Shown here: piece by piece, positions 22,184-63,566 of the stretch
Layout of the letters: every line of letters starts with the position of its first letter
Position numbering within the stretch: position 1 is the first letter of the stretch
Assembly: GCF_008389435.1 (NCBI RefSeq)
Contig: NZ_VUYS01000008.1
Span: forward strand, 8,774-72,773
DNA from: Candidatus Nitrosocosmicus agrestis
Lineage (GTDB): Archaea; Thermoproteota; Nitrososphaeria; Nitrososphaerales; Nitrososphaeraceae
Length of the DNA stretch: 64,000 nucleotides
Direction: 5' to 3'
The notes under the pieces: model-generated
The model's database searches: none
What the model was told of the DNA's origin: nothing
Seen by the model: the letters and a program-made list of their open reading frames with translations, nothing else
Made by a program: the position numbers and the translations under genes

Positions 22184-24634
22184 TTATTTTTTATTCGATT
22201 TTAAGGGGCACTGTGGGTTCATACAGAACTGCCATTGATATTTTTTACCTTGATTAATGCCATTGGCTGATATGATGGGCCAATTGCACTCTTTGCAGGA
22301 GTTTCCTGTACCCTTAATCATGCCCTTCAGGGGCAATGGAGCTGTAGCCATACATTTATCCTTAGAGTAGCTTGTGCAACCTGCAAATCTTTTTTTAGTT
22401 TTCAAAGCCTTTTTGATGACTAAATCGCCTTTTTTACAAATCGGACATTTTCCAAGTGGCTTGGTGGTGATATTTTTTTTTAGAACTGGAGTGTTGGACC
22501 TGTCCAATTCTAGTGATTGTGAAAGCTCAAAAGCAATTTTATCTTGGTTTTTGGTAAATGACTCAATAGCTTGCTTTACTTGGTCACGTGCTTGATTAAT
22601 GACTATCTCGCTACTTTTTTGACCCGCTTCTATTTGTTCCAATTGTTCTTCCATCTTTCTTGTTAGACTTGTAGATACTATGCTGGGAACGTATTTTTGC
22701 ATTGAGACTACTAATGCTACTCCCATTTCTGTAGGTCGGATGCCGGCTGAGCCCTTGATATTGATAAACAGATCTTTTTTTTCTGGGTTCGTACCTATTT
22801 TTACAACCAAATCATCCTGTTTCTCCACCTTGTTGTTCTTACGAGTAGTATAAATTTGCGATATATGAGATGATTTGTTGTTACTTTCCAATAAAGTATT
22901 GGGTCTATAATCATAAATGTAATTTCTCTTGTATAGGGTGTTTATTATTTCGGATCGTGTTGCCTTGGTCCCTATTTTCTCTCTTTCCATTTTTTGTAGT
23001 AGGGTTGATTGGTTGTACCTCGGAGGGGGTTGTGTAGCCTTTTGGATCGATTCAATCTTTATTAATTTTAAAATATTATTTTTTTTCAAAAATGACAATG
23101 TTTCCTTCTTCACAAAGGTAGGTAAATCTAAATAAGGCTGGTAATATTTTATCCATCCTTCTGTAAGTATTTTTTTTTCTTCAGCCTTAAAGACATGTTT
23201 ATTCTTGACGGTGATGGTTACCCAAATCTGATTGTAAAAAGCCTCTTGTCCAAATGTTGAAAAAAACCTTCTCGTAATGAGGTCAAGAAGTTTTTGCTCC
23301 GAAGCATCTAGGGACCTTTTGGCTTTTTCTCCAGTTGGATATATAGCCGGATGAGCTGGGTCTTCTTGTTTTCCCTCGTTAGGAGATAAATGTTTTAGTG
23401 AAAGTAGCCTTGAGCATATGTCTGGATAGGATAGGATTGCATCATTTCCAGTACTTTTTTCAAAAGTTACACTATTTACAAATATCCCATTCTTTGATAT
23501 ATTAGAAATAATTTTGTTATAATTTATTGTAGGGGGAAGCTTTTGACTAGATGTTCTGGGATAAGAGATGAGTGCATCAAGGTACAGTTTCTCTGCTATG
23601 GAAAGGGTGTAACTTGGAGTAAATTTGAATACTCTATAGGCTTCTTTTTGGAGATCCCCTAGATTAAAAGGATATGGTGGTTTGATTGATGTTTTGGTTA
23701 TTTTTACCTCTGTTACCTTGCCAAGCTGATTCTTACATTCTGCAATTATTTGAAGGACACTTTTTTCTAATTCAATCTTTTGGGGGAAATGGGATGTATG
23801 GATTATTGTGTCATCTTTTTGAAAATCTGCATTTATGTTCCAATAAGGAGTCGATATATGATCTGAAATTTCTTTCTCTCTTTCTACTACAAAGGCAAGA
23901 GTTGGGCCTTGAACTCTTCCTATTGAAAGTTGAATGAATTTCTTGACGTTGTTATTTTTAGCAGATCGTTTTTTTAAGGAATTCGTTAAAGCTCTTGAAA
24001 GGTTTATTCCATAAATGAAATCTATCGTGTGTCGGGATATACCTGCTTCTTTTAAATTGTTGTTGGGTGGTAACAGGTTTTTAAATGAATTTATTATTTC
24101 TTCATCAGTAAGTGAGGAAAATTTGGCTCTTTTTGATCTGGAGTATTTATTATGGCAGGCATAATGGAGGATATTGTATCCTATTACTTCACCTTCTTGG
24201 TCATAATCACATGCATGGATGAACTCTGTTGCATATTTGGATACAAATTCCAATTCTTTTAGGACTCTTCCCACCTTGAATTGTAGGGATTTGGTTTTAG
24301 AATCATTCGAACGTATAGAAGACAGTGGTTTCCAGATCGGATCGAATATGGGTGATGACTTGTCCTTGTTGTATGAACCTTCAAGCCTATACAAGTGCCC
24401 AAGAGCGTAACCGATAACATACATTTTACCTTTTTTAGTAACTATCGTATCAAATATTGAGGATTTTGACATCTGAATCTCGGATGAAGATGTTGCATTT
24501 CTTTGAATTTGCGCCTTTGCCTCAGGAATTGATCCTACAGTGACTTTCTCTGAGAAACTATAGGATCTTAATGCCTGGGAGACCCTCTTAGCCGATGATG
24601 ATTTCTCGCATATTATTAGACTTAGGTTAGATAT
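22184..24634 (-). CDS. topA: DNA topoisomerase type IA; start codon non-canonical
   Basis: This enzyme relaxes negatively supercoiled DNA by passing single strands. The TOPRIM Asp motif D-Y-D-Q-E-G-E-V-I-G is present, as is the catalytic Tyr in I-S-Y-P-R-T-S-S. Also visible are G-R-V-Q-G-P-T and C-terminal zinc ribbons (C-P-I-C, C-T-S-Y-S-K-D-K-C, C-K-E-C, C-M-N-P-Q-C). The first ATG (24472) would remove the conserved N-terminal strand. Reading upstream in frame gives L-S-L-I-I-C-E-K-S-S-S-A-K-R-V-S-Q-A-L, the TOPRIM Glu-Lys segment. Only ATT and ATA codons lie between that and a TAG at 24644-24646. I place the start at ATA 24632-24634 (816 residues). A TATA-like box sits about 24 nt upstream. 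Confidence 0.85.
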   Translation of the reverse strand: MSNLSLIICEKSSSAKRVSQALRSYSFSEKVTVGSIPEAKAQIQRNATSSSEIQMSKSSIFDTIVTKKGKMYVIGYALGHLYRLEGSYNKDKSSPIFDPIWKPLSSIRSNDSKTKSLQFKVGRVLKELEFVSKYATEFIHACDYDQEGEVIGYNILHYACHNKYSRSKRAKFSSLTDEEIINSFKNLLPPNNNLKEAGISRHTIDFIYGINLSRALTNSLKKRSAKNNNVKKFIQLSIGRVQGPTLAFVVEREKEISDHISTPYWNINADFQKDDTIIHTSHFPQKIELEKSVLQIIAECKNQLGKVTEVKITKTSIKPPYPFNLGDLQKEAYRVFKFTPSYTLSIAEKLYLDALISYPRTSSQKLPPTINYNKIISNISKNGIFVNSVTFEKSTGNDAILSYPDICSRLLSLKHLSPNEGKQEDPAHPAIYPTGEKAKRSLDASEQKLLDLITRRFFSTFGQEAFYNQIWVTITVKNKHVFKAEEKKILTEGWIKYYQPYLDLPTFVKKETLSFLKKNNILKLIKIESIQKATQPPPRYNQSTLLQKMEREKIGTKATRSEIINTLYKRNYIYDYRPNTLLESNNKSSHISQIYTTRKNNKVEKQDDLVVKIGTNPEKKDLFINIKGSAGIRPTEMGVALVVSMQKYVPSIVSTSLTRKMEEQLEQIEAGQKSSEIVINQARDQVKQAIESFTKNQDKIAFELSQSLELDRSNTPVLKKNITTKPLGKCPICKKGDLVIKKALKTKKRFAGCTSYSKDKCMATAPLPLKGMIKGTGNSCKECNWPIISANGINQGKKYQWQFCMNPQCPLKSNKK

Positions 24635-24652
24635 GTTATAAATCTAGGTCGG

Positions 24653-24662
24653 GAGATAAATT
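24653..24662 (-). promoter_or_regulatory. TATA-like box of topA
   Basis: TAATTTATCT on the minus strand, centred about 24 nt upstream of the proposed ATA start. This fits a leaderless transcript beginning at that codon. Confidence 0.3.
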
Positions 24663-24989
24663 AATCCTTCCTTGCAATGTAATCCTGACATTAAAATACT
24701 TTGTCTAATTTACACTAATTAGGATGACCATTGTCCCTATTAAATTAGTCAGTAAGAAAAAGCTTTGATCTATTTTCAAATTTGATCTATAGAAGATATT
24801 CTCCAACATTAATAGAAATAATCGAGTTGGAATCCCATCCACAGGATAAATAGATTAATTAATATTAGAATTATAATTTTTTTAATCTGTTACTAGATCA
24901 AAAAAATCAAATTGTAGATACCTTTTACTCTGCATTACTTGGACGGCCGAGAGAAGATGTAGTTTAAGCTTAGTAACATGCTTACTCGT

Positions 24990-25619
24990 TTAGTCCCATT
25001 TCCATACCTTGGTGAATCCCTTGCCCAAAGGATCTACGGTCTTCTTATAAATACCGAATATGTTGTTAATATTCATAGTACTGTTAGTAGATGTGGCATT
25101 ACTAGAACTAGATCCACTTTCTTTTGAATCTTGGAATGGAATATCGAACATCATTACTCCATTGTCAGTAAAACTTCCATCAGGATTATAGTAACCTTTG
25201 GATTCTGTCTTGTATGTAAATACCTGCCCATTTTCATTCAATATAATGGCTTGACCCTGGGAATAAACTGCTCCATCTGCACCCATTTTATCTACAATGG
25301 TTCCTATGGTCTGCGTTGTTGACCTGTTCATAGTACTATTCCCTACATATGAGACTTCAACAGTCGGCACAGGATCTATGCTAAGGACTCGAGTGTTTGT
25401 TGATTTTGTAGTTTCTGTATAGATGGGTGGACCCAAAGTTTGATTTGATTGGTTCTTGATTAAATAAGGATTCAATGACGAAAAATTGCCCTGGGCATAT
25501 GCAATTGATACATCATGTGGTGTTACTAAAAAAGCGAGGGGTATAAGTGTTATCACTCCTAGAGAAACCAATAACCAACCTGCTCCTGAGATTGACTGAT
25601 ATATTTCACATAAATTCAT
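24990..25619 (-). CDS. Secreted protein, intact paralogue of the 32.5-kb remnant
   Basis: This is a 209-residue protein. A hydrophobic helix at residues 12-33 is followed by A-Y-A-Q, a plausible export cleavage site. The mature domain is beta-rich (V-E-V-S-Y-V-G-N-S-T, S-T-T-Q-T-I-G-T-I-V, Y-Y-N-P-D-G-S-F-T-D-N-G-V). It then has a Ser/Asn linker and the tail G-I-Y-K-K-T-V-D-P-L-G-K. A degraded copy lies 7 kb downstream. The function is unknown; it is probably a surface protein restricted to this lineage. Confidence 0.75.
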   Translation of the reverse strand: MNLCEIYQSISGAGWLLVSLGVITLIPLAFLVTPHDVSIAYAQGNFSSLNPYLIKNQSNQTLGPPIYTETTKSTNTRVLSIDPVPTVEVSYVGNSTMNRSTTQTIGTIVDKMGADGAVYSQGQAIILNENGQVFTYKTESKGYYNPDGSFTDNGVMMFDIPFQDSKESGSSSSNATSTNSTMNINNIFGIYKKTVDPLGKGFTKVWKWD

Positions 25620-27815
25620 ATCAAGAAAATTGGAATTGAAAAATATAAATATTTAGTTGTGGAGTCTGAGTATTTTTACATTTTGGTTTACTGATGCTTA
25701 ACATATATGTGATTCTAAATCTATATTTATACAATATGTACACTTCTAATCCAAATTTGAATTGAAATAGACGTTATCATAAATCAGGTCAAGCTTATAC
25801 TCGTTATTTGTAAGCGGGTTATTCCTTCACTCATACATATTCTAAAATTATATGTGCTTGCTTTCGCTTCCTTTCTTACCAACCCATCCATTTCTTTTCT
25901 TGCGTAATAAATAATCATATTAATCAGTTGATAAGTTTTTTTTACATAAAAAAATATGAACTTATTATTTCACTTCCTTTGCGTCATATAATAGTTAATT
26001 TTTAATATTCTTACAATCATCGGGCTTAGGTCTTTATATCCCAAAAGTCAGTCGAATTCTCACTTGAGATATTGTTACTACTTCAAGATGATTGTACTCT
26101 AACATCTTACCCGAGAGTAGAACGACATTTACTATTGCCAAATAATTTTTATTTTTGACTGCAAGTTCTAGCATAAAATATTTACATTTTAAGCAATATC
26201 TTTTCTTCACTTTTAGAATAATCTAGTTAGCGTTCTAAATTGCCATACCCAATATGGTCTGAAATGAATCACTTCTCTCGTCGGGTTACTTTAGTTCCAT
26301 CATATATTCTATTATGATTCTAATATCAGGTAATATCTAATGTAATTTACTGAGTGCGGTTACAATATTTGAAATTTTAAAGATCACTATAAGCAAGCAT
26401 ATGGTATATCAATCGGGATGCTTGATGGATCTCATGCTTCAAACCTTTCAATAAAACCAATTTTTTAAAACCAATCATTTAAATTTCGTCACAATTTAAA
26501 ATCAAACCACTGCAGACCAATCCCTTATTAAAATTATGATTCACATGCTTTCTCTAGGTCATATTTGTCATAATAAATTATATGAATCTTGATAGTCTTG
26601 GTCTATACACTTTGAAACTTCTTGTTTGATAGTCGATCACATTGATTATTTTTTTTATATCTTTACTTGCGGTTAGCAGCACATTAATTTCTCGGATGAT
26701 GATTATCTAAATTGAATCTAATTTTTCAGTCGGTGATTAAGATCAAACATTTGATTTTCATTCGATGCAATATTAGACCCGATTTTTCTTCAGAATCTTA
26801 AAGTTTAAATCGACTTATACTATATTTTAAGCAAATTTTTTCAATTTGTTTACTTAAACTCTAATGCCGACTCTAATAATAGGAGTAATAATAGTATATC
26901 TTTGATTATACCATAAATATCTTATAGACTGACGGAAAAATCCAAAATGAAATGTATAAGTTTGATTCCACATGATGTTCAGAACCAGTTTATAGTTTAT
27001 CTTACTCTTAAGAATGAGTGGGCCCTATAGAAATAGACCTTTATTATCTCATTAGGAGACAATTTAAATCAGCAACTGTTGAAATTTCGTGAAACCTATT
27101 CATAAAAAAGTTTATTCCTTTTCCGTGTTACTTTTTCTATAGGTCTAATTAAATCATATTAGTTTTCACATTATTGTTGATGGTTATTTGACGGAATGAA
27201 AGAGATTCATTGATATTGTCTATGCCCAAATAATGGATGGACATGAAATCGTGGATGCCTGCTTTTTCATGTAAAGGTACATTGAAAAAGTAATAGTTAG
27301 TGTAAATATATTTTTTACAACTGGACTAATGCATTGTTATTTGCTTCAAAATATTTGCATTGACTTCAAACATACAGTATAAGAACTGATTGGTACCTCT
27401 GAGTATTTCAACTATAAAAACTCGACATGCAACAAATATTTCTTTCAGCCAGGGGTAAAATCAACTTTTTTTATAGTCTGCTATCATGAATCAATAAGAC
27501 TCTCCTTCAGGCGTAAAATTGTTATATGCTATTTGCTCGCAATGAGCAAGCCCGAATTTACTTTTAGTAAATAATATCTCAGTATAGGCATACATCGTAT
27601 ATGTTAGCATTATGCAAGTTGCTAGTATTGATTACTGCTATTCAGATGTGATAAAATTATGTTTAGGCAATTTAAACTATGGCACCAAATGATCAAATGT
27701 GGTATAATTCATACTAGAAGAGACGCTCGCAATAATACCTGGGTATATCGATGATGAACACAAGGCGAATTTCACAACATTACTATGTAGTAAAATATAC
27801 TGCTTTTTTGTAGGG
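25620..27815. other. 2.2-kb stretch without a recognisable gene
   Basis: AT-rich DNA with frequent stops in all six frames; no open frame of 60 codons was listed or seen. I read it for decayed coding segments and found none I can name; a 27-codon ATG frame near 26947 is not supported. A 6-bp stem (TTGCTC/GAGCAA) occurs near 27533-27549. It may be remnant sequence of an old insertion or hold an uncharacterised RNA. Confidence 0.55.
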
Positions 27816-62487: not shown

Positions 62488-63566
62488 CTATAAAATCTCT
62501 TCAACTGAAATCTTTTTGTCTCCTCCGCTAAAGACTTCGGAAGGTAGTAACATAACCTTTGATAACTGTTCTTCTTCAATAGGACAGATCAAAACATCTG
62601 ACTGGAGTAATGATGACCTAGAAGTATTTAGAGTTGCATGCATTCTAACAGATTGACCAACTGTAAACATGTACATGGAATCATCATCGGTGTAGTCCAT
62701 ATAGTTCATCCACATGGTCCCATGTTCTCCTGTATCATTGCACCTTTGCGTATTATCGGGAAAAGATGGCTTTCCTGTATTTTCGAATCGTTGGTTGGGG
62801 GTATCAACTACATTATCAGTTCCGCTGCATGGATCTTCCATCATTCCTTCATCTCCCCACAAATGATAACAGTTAAGATAATGTCCTATTTCATGAGTGG
62901 CTGTTCTTCCCAAATTAAAATTGTTTCCAAATGGACTGTTGGGGGATAATACTGAGCCCCTATCACCAAAGACCCAATGACTAATCGCGACTCCATCCGT
63001 AGAAGGGGGTCCGGCTGGAAACTGCGCATACCCTAATAGTCCACTTCTAAGATTGCATGTCCATAAATTCAAGTACCTGGTGGTATCCCACGCGTCTCTG
63101 CCACCCTCAGAAGTAAACTTTATTGGTTCGGGGTCATTAGGATTCTGCGGGATATCAAATACCGTCCTATTTGTTTTTGTTCGGGTTATCCCTCTGGTAG
63201 GTTTTCCCTCTGGGTCCTTGCAGGCAAGTTTGAACTCGATTCGGGTGTCTGCTGCTAAATTTCTCCACGGTTCAGGTACCTTTACAATATCTTCATTAGT
63301 TCTTCTAAAATCTTTGTTTAGTCGATTGATCTGGCTAAGAATCTGTTCTTCTGATATGTTTTCTATTTCGTTATATACACCACGTGAACGACCACAGGTA
63401 TTGTCATAATTGTAGATCTGCTAATGCTTCGCGCAGAACGACCTGTAAATTGTAAAATGTTCTTTTCATCAGATTCTCTGTTCTTTCTATATCGTTCACC
63501 GTTTTTTTCTAAATTTCTCTTGTGTAGTAAGGTGGTACCGCACAATCCGCGACCCTGTTCACTCAA
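62488..63566 (-). pseudogene. M43 (pappalysin-type) zinc protease broken by a 2-bp frameshift
   Basis: The N-terminal part starts at TTG 63566 with a good Shine-Dalgarno 8 nt upstream and runs R-G-L-C-G-T to T-I-P-V-V-V-H-V-V-Y, then hits a stop. The other frame carries Y-N-E-I-E-N-I-S-E-E-Q-I, F-R-R-T-N-E-D and the zinc site T-H-E-I-G-H-Y-L-N-C-Y-H. The Met-turn M-N-Y-M-D-Y-T-D-D follows. Removing one TA from the TATATA run at 63372-63377 joins both frames into one protein of about 358 residues. No signal peptide was seen. It may be a sequencing or slippage artefact or a true pseudogene. Confidence 0.85.

Follow-up and report, generated by a model that had tools for sequence, protein, structure and literature searches.

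Topoisomerase I of a clade of Nitrosocosmicus-type archaea probably starts at AUA, AUU or AUC

The bacterial gene infC, which encodes the initiation factor IF3, starts with ATT, or with ATC in Streptomyces, and sigR starts with GTC; both genes are under the control of IF3, and annotation misplaces their starts (PMC5472188). For the Asgard archaeal tubulin AtubA an ATT start was inferred, the annotated start lacking the first beta strand (PMC13394414). It may be noted that a review of archaeal initiation names AUG, GUG and UUG as starts (PMC7531240) and that Sulfolobus aIF1 discriminates against non-canonical starts (PMC6237735). A study of start switches recorded AUG to AUU once in 61,358 ancestral AUG starts (PMC5622118), and a comparative study accepted AUA, AUU and AUC starts by annotation (PMC5397173). 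These papers, here and below, are cited from their accessible parts. The infC and AtubA precedents mean that this kind of non-canonical start is already known. A literature search, with most subscription journals outside its coverage, gave neither a non-canonical start for an archaeal topA nor a clade-wide AUH start (AUA, AUU or AUC; ATH in the DNA) with A/C/T drift in an archaeal housekeeping gene. What is new here is that an archaeal clade has retained a start of this kind in a housekeeping gene.

The stretch of DNA analysed (the window) comprises 64,000 nucleotides of Candidatus Nitrosocosmicus agrestis. Direct reading of the frame and codons gave a type IA topoisomerase gene, topA, on its minus strand, which is also the single match in this genome. 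The open frame is 819 codons long, with ATT 24643 as its first codon and the stop at 22186-22184. Beyond the TAG at 24646-24644 it reads ATT TAT AAC ATA TCT AAC CTA AGT CTA ATA ATA TGC GAG AAA, and no ATG, GTG or TTG occurs until ATG 24472, which is 54 codons from the ATA and 57 from the TAG. An earlier note on this DNA had reported that the frame extends past its first ATG without a canonical start, with 54 codons upstream of that ATG; our reading confirmed the former, and the latter holds when counted from the ATA. The same note gave 24632 for the ATA and about 24 nt for its distance from a TATA-like box. The ATA is present, but 24632 is its last base and the A lies at 24634; the box is also present as TTAATTTA at 24664-24657, but 30 nt away. 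The features are collected in Table 1. Upstream of topA lies a gene in the same direction (24990-25652, minus strand) that ends in GIYKKTVDP..G.GFTKVWKW or similar, and a gene of this type was also seen in the clade A rows read, with the exception of L040 of genome G004.

Table 1. Positions of the topA features in the window
Feature	Position	Strand	Remark
topA CDS (type IA topoisomerase) if started at ATA	22184..24634	-	stop codon 22186-22184
ATA, likeliest start codon	24632..24634	-	ATH in frame, 8 codons before Cys (8 to 10 in orthologues)
ATT, alternative start codon, abuts in-frame stop; L040 has ATT too	24641..24643	-	
TAG in frame, upstream closure of the topA frame	24644..24646	-	
GAG, invariant TOPRIM Glu, residue 10 counted from ATA	24605..24607	-	20/20 proteins
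TOPRIM strand 1 and helix, residues 4-25, 5' of first ATG	24560..24625	-	AlphaFold2 model
First in-frame ATG, residue 55	24470..24472	-	start there loses strand 1, Glu, helix 1
TTAATTTA, possible TATA box, 30 nt before ATA	24657..24664	-	read by eye

Relatives were collected by a contig scan that gave 38 topA loci, and topA was matched in 56 of the 61 genomes searched. Within the genus 14 of 15 genomes had a match, G008 being the one without. Eight of the 15 (G000, G002, G004, G005, G006, G009, G011 and G013) belong to what we call clade A, whose ninth row is a related contig that occurs as L002 and in G036 (L043). A canonical start candidate is present in four genus genomes (G001, G003, G007 and G010), and in G012 and G014 the front of topA is off the contig. 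Duplicate records were counted once (L003/L044, L023/L047, L036/L075 and L002/L043); the 52 loci examined omit repeats as well as L004, L046 and L048, whose contigs lack the front of the gene. No relative turned up in a scan of viral contigs.

In 8 of the 9 clade A rows the codons from the upstream stop down to -6, counted back from the invariant Cys, include no ATG, GTG or TTG. The exception is L045, with a long open frame in which the only canonical codons are a remote ATG at -34 and a TTG at -32. An ATA, ATC or ATT is found in frame in all nine rows, 8-10 codons ahead of the invariant Cys-Glu-Lys: at codon -8 in the window (ATA) and L040 (ATT), at codon -9 as ATC in L002, L003, L041, L042 and L047, and at codon -10 in L036 (ATC) and L045 (ATT). 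What we would ask of a natural AUH start, that no canonical start is available and that this is common to orthologues, is therefore what these rows have (8 of 9, the ninth with remote ones only). The alignment of related topA upstream regions that the earlier note had suggested, once run, revealed a shared start lack and an ATH kept in 9 of 9 rows, and this conservation lends good support to its proposal of rare ATA/ATT initiation. On checking ten AUG-like codons (ATG, GTG, TTG, CTG, AAG, ACG, AGG, ATA, ATC and ATT), the ATC was the sole one in L002, L041, L047 and L036. A further near-cognate codon exists besides the ATH in the window and L040 (ATT at -11), L003, L042 and L045, so the exact start codon is not unique there. 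For the window we favour ATA 24634 as the likelier of the two and regard it as probably the start; ATT 24643 is a possible but less expected choice. L041 also has an ATG at codon -4, possibly a private start in that row alone. This ATG and the far ATG of L045 are canonical codons at unusual places, and sigR of Streptomyces uses GTC (PMC5472188), so that a start codon outside the canonical and near-cognate sets, or separate starts for separate lineages, may be considered instead of a shared AUH. But such starts are improbable, since all 9 rows have an ATH at -8 to -10 and 4 of them have no other AUG-like codon.

In a maximum-likelihood tree of 47 topA proteins a branch with 100/100 support separates the nine clade A rows from the rest. 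Protein identity between the three lineages of the clade is 53-61%, and the recurrence of the start lack in orthologues at this distance is more than would be expected by chance. The AT of the codon is constant, and its third base drifts among A, C and T as neighbouring codons change (GTT ATC TAT in L036 vs AAT ATT CAA in L045; AAC ATA TCT in L001 vs TAT ATT CAA in L040). In the third lineage, a group of five species, ATC is invariant (5 of 5). Downstream of ATC this group varies mainly in the third codon position: the variable columns at positions 1, 2 and 3 number 2, 2 and 5 over the first eight codons and 4, 0 and 7 over a further fifteen. The 16 nt preceding ATC have 2, 0 and 2. These 16 nt are about as conserved as the codons that follow, so conservation alone cannot place the coding boundary or tell constraint on coding from constraint on regulation. 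L042 has lost 1 nt some 20 nt upstream of ATC, and this deletion argues that coding starts downstream of it.

The region upstream also bears on whether an AUG located there could be brought into frame by mRNA splicing or programmed frameshifting. Five rows do have an ATG 37-38 nt upstream, inside a conserved block, but it is in frame 1 in four of them and in frame 2 in L042. In the remaining rows the upstream ATGs either stop before the ATH or sit in other frames, and we found no upstream peptide common to the nine rows. We consider an upstream AUG quite improbable. Frameshift, intron and stop read-through were rejected alike, as frames, stops and upstream peptide are not common among clade A rows.

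The window topA product scored 550.5 bits with TIGR01057 (cut-off 458), an archaeal type IA DNA topoisomerase, and the Topoisom_bac and Toprim domains were found in it. With numbering from the ATA, E10, D143, D145 and Y358 (in SYPRTSS) are invariant in 20 of 20 aligned topA proteins; the first three we take to be the TOPRIM acidic residues and Y358 the active-site tyrosine. C9, E10 and K11 are unchanged across the same 20 proteins, and E10, the catalytic acid of the TOPRIM fold, aligns with the matching Glu of the solved topoisomerase III 6k8n. An AlphaFold2 model made from the 20-protein alignment (mean pLDDT 76.9, pTM 0.62) has a strand at residues 4-9, a helix at 12-25 and a low-confidence stretch at 27-58. 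The conserved TOPRIM strand that had been noted upstream of ATG 24472 is thus upheld, both by the invariant Cys-Glu-Lys and by the strand in the model. On the alignment, the topA sequence upstream of ATG 24472 is conserved coding sequence. A start at an internal canonical codon would give a protein without the first TOPRIM strand. In the window this would be ATG 24472, which, as the first ATG, is the expected pick of a gene finder restricted to ATG, GTG and TTG. However, this first canonical codon is that of residue 55, beyond the first TOPRIM strand and its Glu, and a protein begun at it would be without the strand, the Glu and the helix. What is lost, including the invariant Cys-Glu-Lys, is conserved coding sequence. 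The internal canonical codons are also unlike in position across the nine rows, the first lying at +13 to +80 in 8 of the 9 (+46 in the window, +13 in L040 and +80 in L003). A start of this kind is very improbable. Removal of the normal start by an assembly or base-calling error, which the earlier note had left as its other option, is the usual cause of a single odd gene, and one-genome frameshifts do exist in the genus, but it is excluded for practical purposes: eight other rows, drawn both from complete genomes in a single contig and from drafts, have the same lack, with topA only 53-61% identical.

Outside clade A a canonical start candidate was found in all 39 loci tallied after the near-copies L005, L010, L030 and L060 were dropped. 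The candidates were TTG alone in 20 cases, GTG alone in 4, ATG alone in 3 and mixed in 12, and a weak topA start seems to be general in the family Nitrososphaeraceae. Among 249 comparison genes with a single early candidate (from the window, G013 and G004) there were 150 ATG, 70 TTG and 29 GTG; the comparison is descriptive only, as this TTG count is probably inflated by chance codons and the topA rows are kin rather than independent. The best reading of these sequences would be a single switch in which AUH, a weaker start, took the place of a weak TTG.

To place the start with respect to promoter signals, it may be noted that TTTATA-type boxes in the genus peak 36-29 nt before start codons (k-mer count and position-prior model), and that the base composition before genus starts has no Shine-Dalgarno peak; leaderless initiation in the genus is plausible. 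For topA itself the signs are mixed, although in the window the TATA box is at roughly the right spacing. In most clade A rows a stretch resembling TTAATTTA can be made out by eye some 28-32 nt ahead of the ATH. The scored TTTAT parts of topA are at -25 to -31, and the spacing is not uniform among rows. The nearer box is outscored in the ATC group by a TTTATAAA box at about -52, which would imply a leader of about 20 nt with GGTG at -12. A match resembling a Shine-Dalgarno sequence is absent in 4 of the 9 rows. An unsupervised motif search for a TATA box returned noise only, and a conserved leader fold for the ATC group was rejected, a search in four of the five rows having given two-sided changes in 0 of 24 pairs.

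The initiator anticodon-loop pattern GGGCTNATNACCC gave 17 matches over all 15 genus genomes, every one with a CAT anticodon, and on this basis an altered initiator tRNA was rejected. The initiator stem-loop with CAT occurs once per clade A genome, with no other first anticodon base. ARAGORN and Rfam called no tRNA around the pattern in the eight loci given to them. One region, L152:1446-1560, and the same region of L154 (minus strand), resembles by eye an intron-bearing initiator tRNA that neither program called.

Other genes with a similar lack were searched for in three ways. The first, a scan by codon score, covered 864 kb (the window and, from each of G013 and G004, 20 stretches) and flagged 7 of 517 coding ORFs; the window topA was not among them, which makes the scan an insensitive one. 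A Markov-score scan had 651 coding ORFs, with the first canonical codon at least 12 codons in for 168, and here the window topA ranked 12th. In a homology scan, 141 ORFs of the G013, G004 and G000 sets had a homologue in another set. The 20 rows listed from it comprise 3 topA, 7 whose first canonical codon has index 5, a pair of frameshifted genes from a single genome (L113 and L115) and 8 (index 13-76) judged by eye to be antisense, low-complexity or short. No other gene with a similarly deep and shared start lack was found in the 864 kb scans and the 141-ORF homology scan, within their limited sensitivity. The two frameshifted genes belong to G004. At L113:9448-10029 (minus strand) an endonuclease V has its frame shifted by 1 nt at a run of A close to the front, and most of its homologues in other genus genomes are longer open frames; at L115:15096-15698 (plus strand) a MarC-family copy has a shifted front, and several genus genomes hold more than one MarC copy or fragment. 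Both are unlike topA in that the shift is at a base run and relatives have longer frames. An M43 metalloprotease ORF in the window (62488-63420, minus strand) has 116 codons without a canonical start; a frameshift close to the front, in a pseudogene or from a base error, is the probable cause.

On sequence grounds we hold it probable that topA of clade A starts at AUH. The ordinary initiator tRNA, with its CAU anticodon, would pair with the A and U and tolerate a mismatch at the third position, as for the infC ATT, and this mismatch would make initiation slow. The AUH would have replaced an ancestral TTG, itself weak, and would keep topoisomerase I synthesis low. Since the ancestral TTG was already weak, the weak start probably serves a low level of topoisomerase I. 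The AUH start may perhaps also respond to the stringency of aIF1, although active regulation through start weakness is a tentative suggestion. Equally speculative is the wider idea that soil ammonia-oxidising archaea set their dosage of topoisomerase I through the weakness of its start codon, with TTG used family-wide and AUH in one clade. If true, control at the level of the start codon, perhaps via aIF1 stringency, would give archaea a counterpart to the control of infC. Gene finders limited to ATG, GTG and TTG would truncate topA and lose its catalytic Glu. A clade-wide archaeal AUH start would be a natural system in which to study the stringency of start choice by ribosomes and aIF1, and would also suit asking whether start weakness sets topoisomerase levels.

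On comparing topA with the systems described, infC and sigR are similar in being functional genes with a conserved non-canonical start which annotation misplaces to a canonical codon, and the infC mismatch is at the third base, the same as in clade A topA (PMC5472188). They differ in being bacterial, controlled by IF3 and experimentally shown, whereas topA is an archaeal topoisomerase gene known from its sequence. AtubA is archaeal and rests on the same missing-strand argument, but its ATT was inferred for one operon (PMC13394414), whereas the AUH of topA recurs in nine rows, its third base being A, C or T. The TTG-started topA of other Nitrososphaeraceae is the same gene with a weak start at a comparable place; yet TTG is a recognised start, and the AUH of clade A lies outside the set of AUG, GUG and UUG named in the accessible text of the review (PMC7531240). 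Bacteria repress starts of the infC type through IF3; in archaea the candidate for such a role at topA would be aIF1.
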